Source: an uncultured Flavobacteriaceae bacterium (GTDB taxonomy: Bacteria; Bacteroidota; Bacteroidia; Flavobacteriales; Flavobacteriaceae). From it: 39,786 nt of DNA. The stretch lies in NCBI GenBank assembly GCA_947489085.1, contig CANLCJ010000037.1, positions 1 to 39,786 of the forward strand, in the 5' to 3' direction. Both the position numbers and the translations under genes were made by a program. This document shows, one piece after another, positions 3,212-39,254 of this stretch. Within the stretch, counting starts at the first letter, position 1. Each line of letters begins with the position of its first letter. The notes beneath the pieces were generated by a model that did no database searches, was not told the DNA's origin, and was given only the letters and a program-made list of their open reading frames with translations.

Positions 3212-4537
3212 TTATTCGGATCTTAAGGCCTCAATTGGTTTTTTATTTGCAGCAGATTTTGCAGGTAATATACCAAAAACTAAACCAACGCCTACTGCTA
3301 TTGCAAACGAAAGTAATATGGAATTTAGGGATAGCACGGTTTCTATTCCAGAGGTTATTTCTATGCTATAGGCACCAATTATGCCTAATACTATTCCTAT
3401 AATGCCACCACCTACGCTTATAAGTACAGATTCTGCTAAAAATTGTAAAACGACATCTTCCCTCGTAGCACCTATTGCTCTCATTATACCAATTTCCTTA
3501 GTACGCTCTAAAACAGAAGCCAACATAATATTCATAATGCCAATGCCTCCTATTAACAGGGATATGCCAGCAATAATGCTTAGTACAATATTAAATATTT
3601 GTTTTGTTTTTTGCTGCTGTTTTAAAAGCTGTATGGGTATTGTTATTTCAAAATTTAACTTGCCATTGTGCCTGCGTTTTAGCATTTTACTTATTACTTC
3701 TGCGGTAGATTGTAGTGTGTTTGCTTTTTTTACTTGTACGGTAAGCTTATCGATTTGGTTGTTGTTTTTAAGCTTTACCGGCGTTTTACTTAACGTTTGC
3801 TCATCTTTTTTTCGATCTTCAAAACGAATTAAAAACGTTTTTATGGGGATATAAATATCTTGATTAAGATCTCTAATACCTAAATTCTCTTGGGCTTTGG
3901 AAGATACAAATTGTTCCTCTATAATACCAGTTACCTGTAACCATACATGTTTTACTTTAATAAATTTGCCAATGGCGCGTTGGCCTGCAAACAATTTTTT
4001 CTCTATACTTCTTCCAATAATACACACAGGAGCCGCATTTCTTATTTGATGATTAGAAAACAGTTTACCTTGAGCAATTTTAACGTTAGCGGTAGTAAAG
4101 AAATCTGGTGTTACGCCAACGAGCTTTACTTGTTTTTGCCTGCCATTATTAATAACATTAGCAGTTAGAATAACTTCAGGGCTTACAAGGGCTATAGAAG
4201 GTATATGTTTGGCTATACTTTCTGCATCTGATATGTCTAGCCCTTTGGCATATTTTTTAGAGAAGCTGGCTTTTTTCTTGTCTGCCGTTTTATTATTGCC
4301 TGTACTTTGTTGTGGGGTTTTTGGCGTAATAATTATGTTATTAACCCCAATACGTTCTAATTGAGATAGTATTTCTTTTTCGGCGCCTTTGCCTATGGCT
4401 AACATGGTTATAACGGCTGCAACACCAAATATAATGCCTAGCGCAGTAAGAAATGTTCTAACAGTATTGGTTTTAATAACGCGTAATGCTTCTGTAATAC
4501 TGGACTTAATTTTCTCAAAATAAACAGTATCTAGCAT
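3212..4537 (-). CDS. MacB/FtsX-type ABC transporter permease
   Basis: A 441-residue inner-membrane permease with the MacB architecture. A cytoplasmic start carries TVRTFLTALGIIFGVAAV (first membrane helix, about residues 27-50). A large periplasmic domain (about 50-320) follows, then three C-terminal helices forming the FtsX domain (about 325-350, 370-395, 410-430) with the conserved ERTKEIGIMRAIGA coupling segment. In E. coli MacB the ATPase is fused at the N-terminus; here it is absent and the chain begins at the membrane part. The ATPase must come from a separate gene, and none lies in this operon. The gene sits 2 bases after the adaptor and 6 before tolC. Mechanotransmission export is the known family role; the substrate is unknown. 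Confidence 0.9.
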   Translation of the reverse strand: MLDTVYFEKIKSSITEALRVIKTNTVRTFLTALGIIFGVAAVITMLAIGKGAEKEILSQLERIGVNNIIITPKTPQQSTGNNKTADKKKASFSKKYAKGLDISDAESIAKHIPSIALVSPEVILTANVINNGRQKQVKLVGVTPDFFTTANVKIAQGKLFSNHQIRNAAPVCIIGRSIEKKLFAGQRAIGKFIKVKHVWLQVTGIIEEQFVSSKAQENLGIRDLNQDIYIPIKTFLIRFEDRKKDEQTLSKTPVKLKNNNQIDKLTVQVKKANTLQSTAEVISKMLKRRHNGKLNFEITIPIQLLKQQQKTKQIFNIVLSIIAGISLLIGGIGIMNIMLASVLERTKEIGIMRAIGATREDVVLQFLAESVLISVGGGIIGIVLGIIGAYSIEITSGIETVLSLNSILLSFAIAVGVGLVFGILPAKSAANKKPIEALRSE

Positions 4538-4539
4538 AT

Positions 4540-5787
4540 TTAGTCTTTAAGAAGCGTTAAGGGTGTATCGTCTGCGCTATCGGGTTTACTAAGGTATACT
4601 TTATCGCCTTCATTTAAGCCTTTAGTTACAATAATAACTTCATTATTAGCATGGCTTAACTGTAGTTGTTGTTTTTTTATACTGTAACCAGTTTTTACAT
4701 AAGCAAAACTAATAGTATCGCTTGTAAATATAGCTTCCAGAGGTACCATTAGAGCATTGTCTTGGGTTCGGGTTAAAATTCGGTTAGAAGTGGTCATGCC
4801 TGGTCTTATATTCTCGTGCGTGTCGTTAAGTTTTATAAGCATTTGAAACAGTTTTATATTGCTCCCTTTTCTAGTTTCTCCCACGTTGGCTACACTTGTT
4901 ACTTTACCTTGTAATTCTATATTAGGAAACGCATCGAAACCAATAGCTACAGGAAACCCTACTTTTATTTTTCTAACATCTATCTCGTTACAATAGGTTT
5001 TAGATTCCATTTTAGTAAGATCTGGAAGGCTTGCCATAGCAGGATTCCAAGGCGAAATGGTACTTCCTACTGTTGTTTTCTCTCCATCTGAATCTTTAAT
5101 ATAAGTTAACATACCGTCGTTGTTAGAATAGATAGTTAACTTATCTTCTAATGCTTTTAAGTCTTGAATGCGTTTTTTAATCTTAGAAACTTGCGTGCCT
5201 ACTTCAACCATTTTGGCGATGGCCTTTCTCTTTTTTATAGAGTAATTTTCTTTAAGCTCTCTTAAATCACGTTCATTTTTCTCTATGTTAATTTCTAATT
5301 TTCTGATAAGTGTTGGAGCTTCGTAAATAGAATTTTTAAGCTCTAATTTGTCGTCTTCTATACGGAATGCTAAATCTTTTATAGCATTGCGTTCCTGCTT
5401 TAAAGTAAGTGTAGTATCTAGGCGCTCTTGCGTGTATTTAGATTCTGCATTTTCCAAATTTAACAAGGCGTCGTTAATTTTACTGTTAACTTCTGAAGCA
5501 TCGAGTTTACCAATGTAATCTCCTTTTTTTACCAAGGTGCCCTCAGCCACTAAATCTTCAATTTTTAATTGATATATATTGAATTGCCGAGATTCTACAG
5601 GCCCATTAATTTTTTTAGAACTGGTAGATTGTGCTTCGCCAGAGAGTATAATTTCATTTTTAAAAGTACCCTTAACTACAGACGTAATTATAGGTGCATT
5701 TTCGTTAGTGCCACCACCAAACGATGCGTATAAAATTATTAGTATTGTTATTATAGCTCCAATTATAATAATTTTTTTTCTAGGCAT
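4540..5787 (-). CDS. HlyD/MacA-type periplasmic adaptor subunit
   Basis: A 415-residue membrane-fusion protein linking an inner-membrane ABC permease to TolC. An N-terminal membrane anchor (about residues 5-23) has no signal-peptidase site. A beta/lipoyl part near 50-100 includes VKKGDYIGKLD. A long charged helical hairpin (about 105-215) follows, then the second lipoyl half, a beta-barrel (about 255-340, RPGMTTSNRI) and a membrane-proximal domain ending in GLNEGDKVYL. It is the first gene of the adaptor-permease-channel operon. The upstream region holds a palindromic repeat and the icd terminator. I could not find a clean TAnnTTTG promoter. Confidence 0.92.
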   Translation of the reverse strand: MPRKKIIIIGAIITILIILYASFGGGTNENAPIITSVVKGTFKNEIILSGEAQSTSSKKINGPVESRQFNIYQLKIEDLVAEGTLVKKGDYIGKLDASEVNSKINDALLNLENAESKYTQERLDTTLTLKQERNAIKDLAFRIEDDKLELKNSIYEAPTLIRKLEINIEKNERDLRELKENYSIKKRKAIAKMVEVGTQVSKIKKRIQDLKALEDKLTIYSNNDGMLTYIKDSDGEKTTVGSTISPWNPAMASLPDLTKMESKTYCNEIDVRKIKVGFPVAIGFDAFPNIELQGKVTSVANVGETRKGSNIKLFQMLIKLNDTHENIRPGMTTSNRILTRTQDNALMVPLEAIFTSDTISFAYVKTGYSIKKQQLQLSHANNEVIIVTKGLNEGDKVYLSKPDSADDTPLTLLKD

Positions 5788-5866
5788 ATGCGATAATTTA
5801 ATGCAATTTAAAAATAAATAAAAACAAAATAACTAGTGGTTACATTCTTTAATTTCTTTACAAAGT

Positions 5867-5940
5867 AGTGATTTAAACTTTTTTCAATTCGTTATAAAAA
5901 TCTAGAATTTTCACTAGAATCTAAAAAGTTTAAATCATTT
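5867..5940. repeat. dispersed palindromic repeat, copy 1
   Basis: A compact imperfect palindrome. The 15-base end TGATTTAAACTTTTT (5869-5883) recurs as its exact reverse complement at 5923-5937. An inner pair, CTAGAATTTTCACTAGAATC, forms the tip. The reverse complement of the element matches 22491-22645, where an extra block of about 80 bases sits in the middle, and half of it matches 1675-1699. It may be a small non-autonomous mobile element or a REP-like sequence; no transposase is present. Confidence 0.75.
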
Positions 5941-5965
5941 CAAAACAAGAAAGATAAATTAATAA

Positions 5966-5995
5966 AAAAAGTCCCTATTTAGGGACTTTTTAATT
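5966..5995 (-). terminator. bidirectional intrinsic terminator after icd
   Basis: AAAAAGTCCC-TATTT-AGGGACTTTTT forms a tight hairpin with A/T runs on both sides, 20 bases past the icd stop codon. It separates icd from the export operon on the same strand. Confidence 0.9.
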
Positions 5996-6014
5996 AGTAT
6001 TATAACTGCAAATT

Positions 6015-8240
<2,226 letters not shown>

Positions 8241-29800: not shown

Positions 29801-29808
29801 TATATTTG
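29801..29808 (+). promoter_or_regulatory. -7 element TATATTTG before the immunophilin gene
   Basis: Exact match to TAnnTTTG, 21 bases before the ATG at 29830. A TTG inside this box is in frame with the gene but cannot be the start if this is the promoter. No good -33 TTG is seen. Confidence 0.55.
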
Positions 29809-29829
29809 CTGCTCTTAAAAAATAGAACA

Positions 29830-30762
29830 ATGCAAGACGGATTATACGCAAAATTCAATACTCCAAAAGGAGAAATAGTAGTAAACTTAGAGTATAAGAA
29901 AACACCAGGAACTGTAGGTAACTTTGTTGCTTTAGCAGAAGGTAACCTTGAAAACTCTGCAAAACCTCAAGGCACTCCTTATTACAATGGGTTGAAATTT
30001 CACAGAGTAATCCCAGATTTTATGATACAAGGGGGATGCCCTCAAGGTTCTGGTGCAGGAAATCCAGGGTATCAGTTCGATGATGAATTTCACCCAGATT
30101 TAAAACACGACGGTCCAGGAGTATTATCTATGGCCAATGCAGGACCAGGTACAAATGGAAGTCAATTTTTTATAACACATACAGAAACTGCTTGGCTAGA
30201 TGGTAAGCACACTGTATTTGGTAAAGTGATAGAAGGACAAGATGTTGTAGATGCTGTAAGCCAAGGCGATACTATAGAAAGTTTAGAAATTGTTAAAGTA
30301 GGGGAAGAAGCCAATGCATTTAATGCTGTAGAAGCATTTAGAACTTTTGAAGGTTCTAGAGAAGCACGGTTAGCAGAAGAAAAAGCACAACAAGAAGCTG
30401 AGTTAGATAAAGTAGCAGCAGGTTTCGAAAAAACAGATAGTGGATTGCGCTACCAAATACTTCAAAAAGGAAGTGGTGTTAAAGCAGAAAAAGGTAAAAC
30501 AGTTTCTGTACATTACAAAGGCCAGTTATTAGACGGAACAGTATTCGATTCCTCATATAAAAGAAACGAACCCATAGATTTTCCTTTAGGCGTAGGGCAA
30601 GTTATTCCAGGATGGGATGAAGGTATCGGCTTATTAAATGTAGGCGCTAAAGCAAGATTAGTAATACCTAGTGCTTTGGCTTATGGTAGTAGAGGTGCAG
30701 GCGGTGTTATACCTCCAGATGCAAATTTAATTTTCGATGTAGAATTAATGGATGTAAAGTAA
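29830..30762 (+). CDS. dual-family peptidyl-prolyl isomerase (cyclophilin-FKBP fusion)
   Basis: A 310-residue protein joining two unrelated prolyl-isomerase folds. Residues about 1-150 are a cyclophilin: [26 protein letters not shown], and [13 protein letters not shown] charged helix (about 170-205, rich in Glu/Ala/Lys) links it to an FKBP domain (about 208-310): [31 protein letters not shown], and [23 protein letters not shown]. No signal peptide, so cytosolic. Such dual immunophilins are described from Flavobacterium and from apicomplexans. The start is ATG at 29830; an upstream TTG lies inside the promoter box. A strong terminator follows. Confidence 0.94.
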
Positions 30763-34971: not shown

Positions 34972-37056
34972 ATGAGTAAAACTAAAGCCAATAATCAAGT
35001 TGAAATACGTCTGCTTTCGTTCGATATAGATAATACATTAATGGATTTTCATACCTATAAAAGTAATTTTACTAAAATATGGGGAACCTATCAACCAGAA
35101 CATGTATTATTAACTTATAACACAGGGCGTTTAATAGATGATGTATTGCAACTAATAGAACAAAACGTATTACCAGAGCCAGATTATATTATTTCTGGTG
35201 TAGGAACACATATTTATAATTTTAAAGATAAATGCGTTGTAAAGGAATTTAATGATGTTTTAGACGAGGGTTGGGATTTAGAAAAAGTAGAAGCCATTGT
35301 GCAGAACAGTAACCATCCCATTAGCGAACAGCCTATTCGATTCCAGCATGCCTACAAACGCAGTTATTTTTTCCACGATGCCACTCCAGATTTAATTACA
35401 CAAATAGAGCAGGATTTTAAAAACGAAAAAATGCACGTAAATGTGGTATACTCTGGAGACAAATTCTTAGATGTGTTGCCTCAATTTGCTAATAAAGGAA
35501 ATGCTTTGCAATGGTTACTAGGTACATTGCAGTTGGAAACTAATGCAGTTCTTGTTGCTGGAGACAGTGGTAACGATGCAGCCATGTTCGATTTAAAAGA
35601 TGTTAGAGGCATAGTAGTATCTAATGCACACGAAGAGCTTTACCAATACACAAAATACAAGCAATTGTACCATGCAGAGAAAACACAAGGCGATGGTATT
35701 ATAGAAGGGTTAGTGTATTACAATTTGTTGCCAGAAGAAGCTATTGTTGCCAGTAGTGTAGACCATACAGAGGATTTTTACATAAAAAAAACATTAGATA
35801 CTATTGCATTAGAAGATGGAGATGAAAAAATAGCACTTATTAAAGAAGGCTACGATAAAGCAGTAGAAGCATTAAAAAAGAACATTACACCTTTAGGCTT
35901 TTCGGCCTGTTCCATAAAAGATAATGTAGCTCACGGCACAGACGAAAACTATTATAGTGTGTGGGCAAGAGATGGCGCCATAACTGTTATAGGGTCTCTA
36001 CCTTTAATTCACGATAAAGAGATACATGAATGCCAACGCCAAACACTTTTAACTTTATTTGAGCATATTTCCAGAAACGGACAAATTCCATCTAACGTAC
36101 GTATTAAAGATAATGTACCCGATTACTCTGGTGTAGGAGGAATTTGTTCTATAGATAGTGGCATCTGGGTAGTTATTGCATTTTACGAGTATGTTAATGT
36201 AACTAAGGACATCAAATTTTTAAGAGACCACATAGAAAGTATTAAAGAAACCATGCGCTGGTTGGGGGCTCACGACAGTAATAACGATGCCCTACTTGAA
36301 ATACCAGAAGCTGGAGACTGGACCGATTTATTTGGTAGAAGTTACAATATTTTATACGATGAGATACTATGGTACCGCGCCAATGTGTGTTTTGGCCGTA
36401 TGCTGGAAATGTTGGGAGATAATGCCCAAGCAGGCGAGTACATAAGGTGGTCTCAGGTTATAAAAAAGGAAATTGTACAAAACTTTTGGCCTTCAACACA
36501 ACAACAATTGTTTCAATCGGTATCTTTTGCAGAAAAACAGTTCACTTTAGGAGACACATCTTATTTAATAGCGCAAACTACGCCTTTTGATTTTAGTTGG
36601 AGATGTGATACTTTAGGGAACGTACTGGCTTTTTTACATGGTACTATAGATGCCGAAAAAGCACACCAAACTTTTAAATTCATGTTGGGTGTGGGGGTAA
36701 ACGATCCGTTTCCTATAGCAAATGTATATCCTGTGGTAAGCCCTGGCGATCCAGATTGGAGGCCTTATTACACAGTAAATTTATTAAACTTACCCAACCA
36801 CTACCATAACGGTGGCATCTGGCCATTTGTAGGAGGGTTTTGGGTAAAATTTGTAAATAAACTAGGATTTAAAGATGTCGCAATTTCCGAGTTGTACAAA
36901 CTAGCACTAATAAATAAAGAAGGTATAAATCACGAATGGGAATTTACAGAGTGGGCGCACGGTACCACAGGAAAACCCATGGGTAAAGCTTACCAAGCTT
37001 GGTCGGCAGCGCAGTACATTTCTGCATGCCACGACTTAAAATTAATCAATTCGTAA
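34972..37056 (+). CDS. HAD sugar-phosphate phosphatase fused to an (alpha/alpha)6 glycosidase
   Basis: A 694-residue two-domain protein. Residues about 10-250 are a HAD-IIB phosphatase of the sucrose-phosphatase kind: Asp18 and Asp20 (FDIDNTL), TYNTGR (48-53), SGVGTHIY (75-82), Lys175 (ANKGNAL) and GDSGNDAAMFD (197-207). Residues about 290-690 are a glycosidase domain like GH100 invertases and the glycogen-debranching amylo-1,6-glucosidase: YSVWARDGAI (328-337), SIDSGIW with likely acid Asp395, EAGDWTD (446-452), FDFSWRCDTLGN (539-550), YHNGGIWPF (611-619) and HEWEFTEW (654-661, acidic candidates Glu655 and Glu657). No signal peptide. First gene of the operon, 23 bases before the synthase. 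The fused domains suggest making and splitting the same disaccharide; substrate not proven. Confidence 0.87.
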   Translation: MSKTKANNQVEIRLLSFDIDNTLMDFHTYKSNFTKIWGTYQPEHVLLTYNTGRLIDDVLQLIEQNVLPEPDYIISGVGTHIYNFKDKCVVKEFNDVLDEGWDLEKVEAIVQNSNHPISEQPIRFQHAYKRSYFFHDATPDLITQIEQDFKNEKMHVNVVYSGDKFLDVLPQFANKGNALQWLLGTLQLETNAVLVAGDSGNDAAMFDLKDVRGIVVSNAHEELYQYTKYKQLYHAEKTQGDGIIEGLVYYNLLPEEAIVASSVDHTEDFYIKKTLDTIALEDGDEKIALIKEGYDKAVEALKKNITPLGFSACSIKDNVAHGTDENYYSVWARDGAITVIGSLPLIHDKEIHECQRQTLLTLFEHISRNGQIPSNVRIKDNVPDYSGVGGICSIDSGIWVVIAFYEYVNVTKDIKFLRDHIESIKETMRWLGAHDSNNDALLEIPEAGDWTDLFGRSYNILYDEILWYRANVCFGRMLEMLGDNAQAGEYIRWSQVIKKEIVQNFWPSTQQQLFQSVSFAEKQFTLGDTSYLIAQTTPFDFSWRCDTLGNVLAFLHGTIDAEKAHQTFKFMLGVGVNDPFPIANVYPVVSPGDPDWRPYYTVNLLNLPNHYHNGGIWPFVGGFWVKFVNKLGFKDVAISELYKLALINKEGINHEWEFTEWAHGTTGKPMGKAYQAWSAAQYISACHDLKLINS

Positions 37057-37079
37057 CTAAATAAGAAAACTAAAAAATT

Positions 37080-38354
37080 ATGAAATCAATATTGATGATC
37101 TCGTTACATGGCTATGTAGCAGCAAATGCAGAATTAGGAAAACCAGATACGGGCGGACAAGTAGTTTACGTATTGGAGCTAGCAGAACGTTTTAGTAGAC
37201 TTGGTAAAAAAGTAGATTTGGTAACTCGACAGTTCGAAGATCAACCAGAGTATGATGTTGTAGACGATAATTATAGCGTGTGGCGTATACCTTTTGGAGG
37301 TAAGGCATTTATTAGAAAAGAAGATATGCACGACCACCTAAAAAAGTTTGTAACCAACTGTTTGGCAGCCATACAAAAAGAACGCAAAAAATACGATGTC
37401 GTGTATTCGCATTATTGGGATGCAGGCTGGGCAGGACAAAAAATAGCAGAAGAGTTGGGGATATCGCACGTACATACACCTCATTCTTTAGGTTGGTGGA
37501 AACAACACACCATGGGGAGCGACATGGAGGAAAAGGAAATGGAAAAAAACTACCGATTTAAAGAGCGTATACGTAAAGAATATTTTGTTTACCAAATGTG
37601 TAACCATGTTATTGCAACCACTTTACCTCAGGTAGATTTATTAGCGCAGCAGTACGATGTATTGCCTAGAAACTGCACCATGATTCCTCCCGGAATAGAT
37701 GAGAATAGATTTTACCCCGTACCCACTAAAGAAAACGATAAGATAAGAGCAAAATACGATATTCACCCAACAGACATATTGGCTTTGGGGCGTATGGCGC
37801 ACAACAAAGGTTACGATTTACTTTTAAAGGCATTGCCTACTGTTTTCGATTTATGTCCAGAAGCACGACTGGTGGCAGCCATTGGGGGCGATTCTGAGCA
37901 GGACAAAAAAGGAATAAAAGGCCTTGCCAAATTGGCCAACGATTTGGGTATTGCCGATAAAATTAAATGGAAAAACTACATAGCAGACGAGGATTTGGCT
38001 AATGTATACCGCTCGGCAAATATTTTTGCAATGCCTTCGCGATACGAGCCTTTCGGTATGGTGGCTATAGAAGCTATGGCCTGTGGTACGCCAAGTGTAG
38101 TAACTGTACACGGTGGTTTATACGATTTAATAGATTTTGGAAATCAAGCATTATTTGCAGATCCACACCGTCCAGTAGAATTCGGTGCCATGCTGTCTAT
38201 GCCATTGCTCTATCCAAATTTAAGAAACGAACTTTCTGTTGAAGGCGCACGATTTGCCAGACGAAATTTTGGATGGACAGGTATTGCAAAACGCATGTTA
38301 ACCGTGTTTACAAACTCTATAAACCAACGTACAATGGAGTCTATTATTTATTAA
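37080..38354 (+). CDS. GT4 synthase, sucrose-phosphate/mannosylfructose-phosphate synthase type
   Basis: A 424-residue cytosolic retaining glycosyltransferase that should join a nucleotide-activated hexose to fructose-6-phosphate. The N-terminal signature is ISLHGYVAANAELGKPDTGGQVVYVLELAERF (7-38). Other segments are HYWDAGWAGQ (111-120), HVHTPHSLGWWK (130-141), FKERIRKE (160-167) and PPGIDENRFYP (203-213). The donor site is RYEPFGMVAIEAMACGTPSVV (321-341) with the E-x7-E pair Glu323/Glu331. The wording (FEDQPEYD, GG-x2-FI-RKE, HTPHSLG) is, from memory, nearer to Agrobacterium mannosylfructose-phosphate synthase than to plant sucrose-phosphate synthase, so GDP-mannose is as likely a donor as UDP- or ADP-glucose. 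Confidence 0.88.
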   Translation: MKSILMISLHGYVAANAELGKPDTGGQVVYVLELAERFSRLGKKVDLVTRQFEDQPEYDVVDDNYSVWRIPFGGKAFIRKEDMHDHLKKFVTNCLAAIQKERKKYDVVYSHYWDAGWAGQKIAEELGISHVHTPHSLGWWKQHTMGSDMEEKEMEKNYRFKERIRKEYFVYQMCNHVIATTLPQVDLLAQQYDVLPRNCTMIPPGIDENRFYPVPTKENDKIRAKYDIHPTDILALGRMAHNKGYDLLLKALPTVFDLCPEARLVAAIGGDSEQDKKGIKGLAKLANDLGIADKIKWKNYIADEDLANVYRSANIFAMPSRYEPFGMVAIEAMACGTPSVVTVHGGLYDLIDFGNQALFADPHRPVEFGAMLSMPLLYPNLRNELSVEGARFARRNFGWTGIAKRMLTVFTNSINQRTMESIIY

Positions 38355-38366
38355 AACCCTGTTAGT

Positions 38367-39254
38367 ATGTCTAAAATAGTGTGTTATGGCGAAGTGTTAT
38401 GGGATATTTTTCCAGACGGTAACCAAAAAATAGGTGGAGCGCCTTTAAACGTAGCATTACGTTTAAAGGCCTCTCATCATGATATTAATATGGTAAGTGC
38501 CGTAGGAAAAGATGCTTTAGGAACAAAACTTCTGGATTATCTGGATACACAACACATACCAAACTCTCATATACAAGTTAAACCCGCCTATCCAACAGGT
38601 ACGGTTCGCGTTGAGCTCGATGCTAAAAAATCGGCAACCTACAGCATTACCGCACCAAGCGCATGGGATGCTATAGACCTCAAGCCAGAAACTGTAGCTG
38701 CTGTAAAAGCATCTCATGCCTTTGTTTTTGGAAGCTTGGCAGCACGCCACGAACAGTCTAAAACAACCCTGATGGCACTTTTGGAAGTGGCCAACTATAA
38801 AATTCTAGATTTGAATTTAAGACCTCCGCATTATACTTTAAATGTTTTAAAAGCCTTAATGGAAGCGGCAGATTTTATTAAATTTAATGACGATGAATTA
38901 TTTGAGATTTGCGAAGATTTAGGCATCGCCACAAAACACTTGGAAACGGCCATTAAAGCTATTGCTACTTTAACCAGTACCAACACAATATGTGTAACTT
39001 TAGGAGGAGACGGTGCGGTGTTGCTTAAAGAGGGCGTGTTTTATACCAATTCTGGTTATAAAGTTGAGGTTGTAGATACAGTAGGGGCAGGCGATGCATT
39101 TTTAGGTGCTTTAATAAGTGAATTGCTAAAGGAAACACCAGCTCAAGATGCAGTAAACATAGCATGTGCTACAGGCGCACTGGTAGCTGCACAACAAGGT
39201 GCTTCTCCAATAATTACCCGTACAGAGATTGCTGCACTTATTTCTAGGGCTTAA
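38367..39254 (+). CDS. PfkB-family fructokinase
   Basis: A 295-residue cytosolic ribokinase-family sugar kinase. It opens with CYGEVLWDIFPDG and IGGAPLNVALRL (22-33), the substrate-binding Gly-Gly region of fructokinases. It continues with NLRPPHY (150-156), ICVTLGGDGAVL (208-219) and the anion-hole/base motif DTVGAGDAFLGAL (237-249) with Asp243. Length is typical. Fructose to fructose-6-phosphate is the best call given the two genes before it, 12 bases apart: it would return the fructose freed by the glycosidase domain to the substrate pool of the synthase. Last gene of the cluster. Confidence 0.9.
   Translation: MSKIVCYGEVLWDIFPDGNQKIGGAPLNVALRLKASHHDINMVSAVGKDALGTKLLDYLDTQHIPNSHIQVKPAYPTGTVRVELDAKKSATYSITAPSAWDAIDLKPETVAAVKASHAFVFGSLAARHEQSKTTLMALLEVANYKILDLNLRPPHYTLNVLKALMEAADFIKFNDDELFEICEDLGIATKHLETAIKAIATLTSTNTICVTLGGDGAVLLKEGVFYTNSGYKVEVVDTVGAGDAFLGALISELLKETPAQDAVNIACATGALVAAQQGASPIITRTEIAALISRA

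Follow-up and report, generated by a model that had tools for sequence, protein, structure and literature searches.

The window analysed here is a 39,786-nucleotide contig of an uncultured Flavobacteriaceae bacterium (CANLCJ010000037.1, assembly GCA_947489085.1), in which a gene for a HAD phosphatase fused to a glycosidase is followed by the genes for a GT4 glycosyltransferase and a PfkB kinase. The order of the genes, their domains, the conservation of catalytic residues, the clade of the GT4 enzyme and the presence of a GDP-mannose-enzyme relative were observed directly, and we propose that the cluster specifies a cytoplasmic pathway that would both make and break a non-reducing hexosyl-β-fructofuranoside, most likely mannosylfructose. 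An earlier note on this DNA, made by a model from the letters, had seen a make-and-recycle cluster for a fructose-containing osmolyte. It was right in outline, except that the kinase is optional and the product appears somewhat more likely to be mannosylfructose. The three tightly spaced genes lie exactly where it had placed them, on the + strand, with gaps of 23 bp between fusion and GT4 and 12 bp between GT4 and PfkB, and the fusion it described is borne out by an S6PP domain and a GDE_C/GH100 domain, in that order, in one chain of 694 amino acids.

In the proposed pathway the GT4 enzyme would transfer a hexose to fructose-6-phosphate, with a nucleotide sugar, most likely GDP-mannose, as the donor; the product would be dephosphorylated to the free disaccharide by the HAD half of the fusion; the glycosidase half would hydrolyse the disaccharide through Asp452 and Glu660, as in the invertase InvA, to hexose and fructose; and the PfkB kinase, encoded at the locus or elsewhere in the genome, would return fructose to fructose-6-phosphate. 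All substrates are inferred, as are the direction in which the pathway is used and its role in supplying a compatible solute. That the genes encode some hexosyl-fructoside make-and-break pathway seems to us quite probable, and to mannose as its hexose we give slightly less than an even chance. Only tentatively do we suggest a full mannosylfructose cycle in Flavobacteriaceae, in which a single chain both completes synthesis and begins breakdown and a switch between its halves, responding for example to salt or to the disaccharide, sets the level of the solute.

Conservation of the fusion-GT4 pair

A scan of a genome collection with the fusion returned 34 pattern stretches, 21 of them encoding a relative (Jejuia, Algibacter, Polaribacter, Tamlana, Hyunsoonleella, Lutibacter and uncultured Flavobacteriaceae bacterium), and as exact peptides were used the scan is biased to close relatives. 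In all 21 loci the fusion, the GT4 gene and a PfkB-like gene follow in that order on one strand, the kinase match at one locus (L042) being limited to a piece of 100 amino acids. In a less biased search, at E <= 1e-70, the GT4 was found in 23 of 299 genomes of Flavobacteriaceae (21 of 236 genera) and, across the phylum, in 2 of 395 genomes, the window's own and G275, a member of another family. The resulting 24 loci (the window's own, 22 from other family members and G275) start at about fusion residue 200-232, so that they take in the end of the HAD domain and all of the glycosidase; in every one of the 24 the glycosidase end directly precedes the GT4 gene. Longer stretches, read for 12 of them, hold fusion open reading frames (ORFs) of 635-729 amino acids, and the nine full-length fusion matches in 60 genomes all have the GT4 gene adjoining. 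The adjacency in 21/21 and 24/24 loci confirms that the arrangement is neither chance nor an assembly artefact. G275 carries the whole fusion at 58% identity and the GT4 at 70%, outside the family, and therefore the fusion either predates the family set or was transferred. Among 435 pattern stretches from a viral collection there was no relative of the fusion.

The earlier note counted a fructokinase in the cluster; a fructokinase-like PfkB kinase is indeed there, but it is not a fixed part, as it follows the GT4 gene (starting within about 0.4 kb) in just 11 of the 24 loci found through GT4, and the core is thus two genes, fusion and GT4. For 12 of the 13 loci that lack an adjacent PfkB gene no kinase was seen on stretches of 10-13 kb, nor was one on the 10.9-kb stretch of G275; 11 of the 13 genomes encode a kinase relative of 50-59% identity at another place. 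The kinase of the window exceeds the gathering cut-off of Pfam PfkB (E 5.1e-46, 157.8 bits, cut-off 25.8) and falls short of the fructokinase model NF006957 (PRK09434; 102.7 bits, cut-off 450), and its best solved relative, chain 2qhp, is named a fructokinase (E 4.6e-41). In G275 a Gfo/Idh/MocA oxidoreductase gene (L076:3825-5078, - strand) stands after the fusion-GT4 pair in the kinase's place.

The two halves of the fusion

The phosphatase half matches Pfam S6PP (Sucrose-6F-phosphate phosphohydrolase, PF05116) at residues 13-252 (E 2.6e-63, 214.3 bits, gathering cut-off 20.3), and D18, D20, T51, K175, D198 and D202, which we take to be the usual HAD positions, are invariant in 22/22 aligned fusions. 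A secreted or digestive enzyme was rejected because the phosphatase half requires a cytoplasmic substrate and no signal peptide was seen by eye.

The glycosidase half scores best with Pfam GDE_C (residues 466-682, 61.6 bits, cut-off 21) and next to it passes Glyco_hydro_100 (PF12899; residues 528-686, 51.0 bits, cut-off 23.6). Among 18 aligned members, picked to span the family, R333-D334, D395, W450, D452, N606, H612-N613-G614-G615 and E660 (fusion numbering) are invariant; R333-D334, D395, D452, N606, H612-N613-G614 and E660, and not W450, are kept as well in InvA and in a GH100 enzyme of Acidithiobacillus. The alignment with GH100 alkaline/neutral invertases (InvA, InvB, CINV1) covers almost all of the domain and includes the catalytic Asp and Glu: D452 and E660 align with the residues taken to be D188 and E414 of InvA, whose catalytic residues are given as Asp188, Glu414 and Arg430 in PMC10661998; the alignment gave Arg430 no certain place. 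The domain differs from these invertases in its 21% identity to InvA, a long separating branch and its position behind a phosphatase. As to the family placement of the domain, raised in the earlier note, profile search and tree part ways. A search with the 18-member profile finds GH100 invertases first, InvA (5goo) at E 5.3e-26 over profile positions 22-390 of 395, but the tree separates InvA and the Acidithiobacillus enzyme from the other 19 rows at 100/100 by a branch of 3.35, and no grouping with characterised GH100 is seen. As these two stand apart, we would say that the domain works like a GH100 enzyme and is not to be filed as GH100.

Stand-alone relatives of the glycosidase were followed at 12 loci, a selection from the homology matches, none of which has a HAD domain at E 1e-6. 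At six of the 12 a PfkB relative is found in the vicinity or within the chain itself (at L087 with a transporter gene between them), and an MFS transporter is near the glycosidase at seven. These settings fit a cytoplasmic enzyme freeing a sugar for a PfkB kinase, and the six with PfkB make release of fructose plausible. In one such relative, a protein of 719 amino acids (L077:6028-8187, - strand), a stand-alone-type glycosidase and a PfkB kinase form one chain. Relatives of each half of the fusion are found in settings that fit fructose disaccharides. Against one single function for the stand-alone relatives are the other six loci, which have no PfkB, a relative beside GT4-like ORFs (L086), and two relatives annotated GH100 that are located in other sugar clusters of Deinococcus. 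The latter lie on plasmids (L140:3562-9263 and L141:3595-9176), share their gene order and have as neighbours a protein of the class II aldolase/adducin family, one of the four-carbon acid sugar kinase family and another carbohydrate kinase.

It is conceivable, if improbable, that a fructoside is made by the synthase and the phosphatase while the glycosidase acts on another substrate, an α-glucan, glucosylglycerate or some other intracellular glycoside, the fusion merely linking their expression. GDE_C as the best Pfam score would agree with this, and so would the L086 and Deinococcus settings and the appearance in the profile search of chains of the 5ohc type, which we take to be glucosylglycerate hydrolase. 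Yet these chains match over parts of the domain, whereas GH100 spans nearly its full length, and the glucosylglycerate hydrolase model gives the fusion just 20.1 bits with a cut-off of 550; moreover, no locus examined showed the fusion without GT4, and PfkB accompanies or is fused to half of the stand-alone relatives. Less probable still, in our view, is a glycosidase half that is non-catalytic in the cell and senses or binds the disaccharide to control the phosphatase. Such a sensor would avoid a futile cycle, and a non-functional phosphatase domain on the Synechocystis sucrose-phosphate synthase, described in part of PMC4390843, offers a precedent. On the other hand, D452, E660, R333, D334, D395, N606, H612 and N613 are invariant in 22/22 fusions, and conservation is higher in the glycosidase half than in the HAD half (mean pairwise identity 90.8% vs 74.5%), which argues for a working enzyme, as the make-and-break pathway would have it.

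The synthase and the identity of the disaccharide

The second protein matches the Pfam GT4 domains and GT-B_Sucrose_synth. With residue roles for the sucrose-phosphate synthase (SPS) of Thermosynechococcus, TeSPS, taken from an excerpt of PMC7264703, seven of nine catalytic and substrate-phosphate positions examined are kept, namely His158 (H135 in the window), Glu331 (E323), Glu339 (E331), Gln51 (Q27), Arg178 (R163), Arg249 (R238) and, by an Arg-to-Lys exchange, Arg105 (K80). The score with the SPS model TIGR02472 is 201.3 bits for a cut-off of 576, which may be narrow, as just 1 of 14 control genomes passes it. The MshA model TIGR03449 gives 221 bits for a cut-off of 462.5, and MshA was rejected as the identity of the enzyme since that curated cut-off was missed.

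In a midpoint-rooted tree of 20 rows, three of them long-branch references, SPS was represented by Halothermothrix, Acidithiobacillus, seven of nine Bacteroidota chains in which GT4 and HAD are joined, and TeSPS. The window GT4 falls in a clade with Paracoccus and a contig from the viral collection, L139 (support 99/99), with no SPS row inside. Arg253 and Leu335, both beside the donor phosphates of TeSPS, are changed to N242 and M327, and this pair is found in all nine clade members, with neither residue in any of the 11 other rows, the SPS rows having R, K or H and L. An unverified sequence that we take to be MfpsA, the Agrobacterium synthase, and use as a lead only falls in the same clade (46% to the window, 46-49% to others) with the same N and M. 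The earlier note had offered a sucrose-phosphate or a mannosylfructose-phosphate type: most acceptor-phosphate and catalytic residues of SPS are indeed kept, but, as the SPS cut-off is missed and the enzyme has a clade of its own, mannosylfructose is the better half of that alternative.

Partners of the clade's other members vary. On a plasmid of Paracoccus sp. TOH the GT4 (59.7% identity) comes after an unfused S6PP HAD protein and a GH32-type protein (a weak match, 24.6 bits, cut-off 22.1). On the contig L139 (IMGVR_UViG_3300033149_003834, positions 3829-6964), which is classed as viral, the genes for the GT4 (44%) and an S6PP HAD protein overlap, behind an ORF of 320 amino acids that has no Pfam match. 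The two pairs suggest that GT4 and HAD form a stable unit and that the glycosidase varies, and as GH32 is a family of fructosidases, the Paracoccus partner points to a fructoside. By eye the 320-residue ORF looks like a β-propeller glycosidase, and glycosyltransferase-like ORFs (also by eye), a cytidylyltransferase and a sigma-factor-like ORF lie nearby; L139 may hold either a phage-borne disaccharide pathway or a contig wrongly classed.

The donor was approached through the enzymes that make nucleotide sugars. None of the 24 genomes carrying the locus has a galU over the cut-off, compared to 5 of 14 control genomes, among which there was no genome with a true SPS; UDPGP gave one marginal match in the 24 carriers and none in the 14 controls, a search that has no positive control. 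A relative of the mannose-1-phosphate guanylyltransferase-like protein of the window genome is found in 24/24 carriers, at 78-87% identity in 22 others and 39% in G275, the match in one of the 22 (G571) having an internal stop codon; the best curated model of the query is a bifunctional GMP/PMI (291 bits, cut-off 372.95). This survey weighs against UDP-glucose and would leave GDP-mannose or ADP-glucose as the donor, so far as enzyme content can indicate, and the product thus appears somewhat more likely to be mannosylfructose than sucrose.

The same pathway could instead turn over sucrose, the GT4 using UDP-glucose or ADP-glucose and the fused domain being an invertase, a possibility that we rate somewhat lower and that several points favour. 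GH100 sucrose invertases lead the profile search, and stand-alone relatives accompanied by an MFS transporter and PfkB are what sucrose use would lead one to expect. The best curated model of the HAD domain is the sucrose-phosphate phosphatase equivalog TIGR01485 (168.8 bits, below its cut-off of 183.65), and its best solved relative is the sucrose-phosphatase 1s2o. In Acidithiobacillus a GT4/HAD protein occurs alongside GH100 and PfkB, and the position of the window GT4 outside the SPS group does not exclude sucrose, since TeSPS lies outside as well. Sucrose is disfavoured by the score of the GT4 with the SPS model, by a clade without any SPS row and by the lack of a galU over the cut-off in every carrier.

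Mannosylfructose, which we prefer, and the pathway as such have several points weighing against them. Two of the TeSPS positions are not kept (Ala48, T24 in the window, and Arg253), TeSPS, a characterised SPS, pairs in the tree with MshA apart from the other SPS rows, and MfpsA was placed with an unverified sequence. Weaker matches to the galU model are present in 24/24 carriers (the best among those listed 57.8 bits, cut-off 326.8), and because of these and of a UDPGP search without a positive control another UDP-glucose enzyme may be present. The window's own genome has an ADP-glucose pyrophosphorylase, GlgC, over the cut-off (L144), so that ADP-glucose can be made. As GDP-mannose enzymes are common, their count of 24/24 is of low weight by itself. 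On the side of the glycosidase, GH100 enzymes are glucosidases according to the title of an InvA paper cited in PMC10661998, the low identity to InvA is matched by one of 19% to the GH100 enzyme of Acidithiobacillus, the fused domain shares just 25-29% identity with its relatives in sucrose-like loci, and a structural model of the fusion, predicted from 22 close relatives, was of poor quality (mean pLDDT 58) and was not used. Synthesis and hydrolysis carried by a single chain would be futile unless controlled, and no control element turned up, regulators having been sought solely by reading the neighbours, with no dedicated search. The regulated osmolyte cycle that the earlier note suggested is so far a hypothesis.

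Known systems and the surroundings of the locus

The mannosylfructose pathway of Agrobacterium consists of MfpsA, a GT4 enzyme, and MfpsB, an S6PP-type HAD phosphatase. The cluster shares with that system the pairing of these two types, whereas its phosphatase is fused to a glycosidase domain and MfpsB is a separate protein without one. In A. tumefaciens mannosylfructose, as mannosucrose, rises with NaCl (PMC2918589). With SPS and sucrose-phosphate phosphatase (SPP) of Thermosynechococcus, Halothermothrix and the Bacteroidota GT4-HAD chains the cluster would share the reaction types, to judge from most active-site residues being kept; it differs in a GT4 of another clade and in a phosphatase joined to the glycosidase and not to the synthase, the HAD being fused behind GT4 in 9/9 of the Bacteroidota loci examined. 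Bidomain SPS proteins are described in an excerpt of PMC4390843.

Plasmid p6 of Acidithiobacillus sp. AMEEHan encodes in a row an MFS transporter, a kinase of the PfkB type, a GH100 enzyme and, annotated as a HAD family hydrolase, a GT4-matching protein of 720 amino acids; by our own reading the last would be of the SPS/SPP type and the cluster would make and break sucrose. There the GH100 enzyme is separate, the phosphatase sits on the synthase and the GT4 is 31.5% identical. The Paracoccus plasmid likewise has an S6PP HAD and a glycosidase-type protein adjoining its GT4, but all as separate proteins, and with a weak match to GH32 in the glycosidase. The earlier note had set the cluster apart from known pathways: the fusion partner does appear new, but as the Acidithiobacillus cluster has PfkB, GH100 and GT4/HAD, the set of activities does not. 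A phosphatase joined to a glycosidase in one chain is new to us, and among the matches listed in open-licence literature there was no description of such a fusion or of flavobacterial synthesis of sucrose or mannosylfructose.

Should the proposal hold, mannosylfructose as a solute would extend from rhizobia to a group of flavobacteria, and the glycosidase half, which belongs to hydrolases that to our knowledge have not been known to act on mannosylfructose, would be a candidate enzyme for its breakdown. The fusion would then offer a natural single-chain make-and-break enzyme for studying the control of a would-be futile cycle, and also a warning for annotation, as by score one half passes for a sucrose phosphatase and the other for a glycogen-debranching or invertase domain.

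Coordinates of the genes, domains and proposed catalytic codons in the window
Feature	Position	Strand	Basis
Fusion protein, HAD phosphatase + glycosidase, 694 aa	34972..37056	+	ORF and Pfam domains
HAD (S6PP) domain, residues 12-253	35005..35730	+	D18, D20, T51, K175, D198, D202 invariant in 22/22
Variable linker, residues 254-285	35731..35826	+	mean pairwise identity 58%
Glycosidase domain, residues 286-690	35827..37041	+	mean pairwise identity 90.8%; HAD domain 74.5%
Codon of D452, proposed general acid	36325..36327	+	alignment with the presumed Asp188 of Anabaena InvA
Codon of E660, proposed general base	36949..36951	+	alignment with the presumed Glu414 of InvA
GT4 glycosyltransferase, 424 aa, proposed hexosyl-fructose-6-phosphate synthase	37080..38354	+	Pfam domains, alignment, tree
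PfkB kinase, 295 aa, proposed fructokinase	38367..39254	+	Pfam, curated models, nearest solved chain

A Bacteroidetes-type promoter motif was found within 250 bp upstream in 0/22 fusions, similar patterns across the whole window were no more frequent than by chance, and a scan for sigma-70-type promoters gave a result not above shuffles. The relatives share flanking genes, named by eye, with AAA-ATPase-like and vWA-like genes upstream (each in 18 of 21 loci) and M1-peptidase-like and YdeI-like genes downstream. These were rejected as pathway partners, as in the window they are not beside the cluster and nothing suggests a link to the pathway. At 8 of the 21 loci, and not in the window, an ORF that by eye is CRP-like lies about 3.5-5.7 kb upstream, before the AAA-like and vWA-like genes; at L025 (292-1344) one copy has a receiver domain in front, and the seven other loci have single ORFs.

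Neighbours of the cluster in the window with a Pfam match are a RecQ-type helicase, a peptidyl-prolyl isomerase, an NAD-binding protein, a fatty acid hydroxylase, an AhpC/TSA protein and a tRNA-binding domain, which do not suggest that they belong to a disaccharide pathway. At 29806-30762 (+ strand) a single ORF combines cyclophilin and FKBP-type peptidyl-prolyl isomerase domains.

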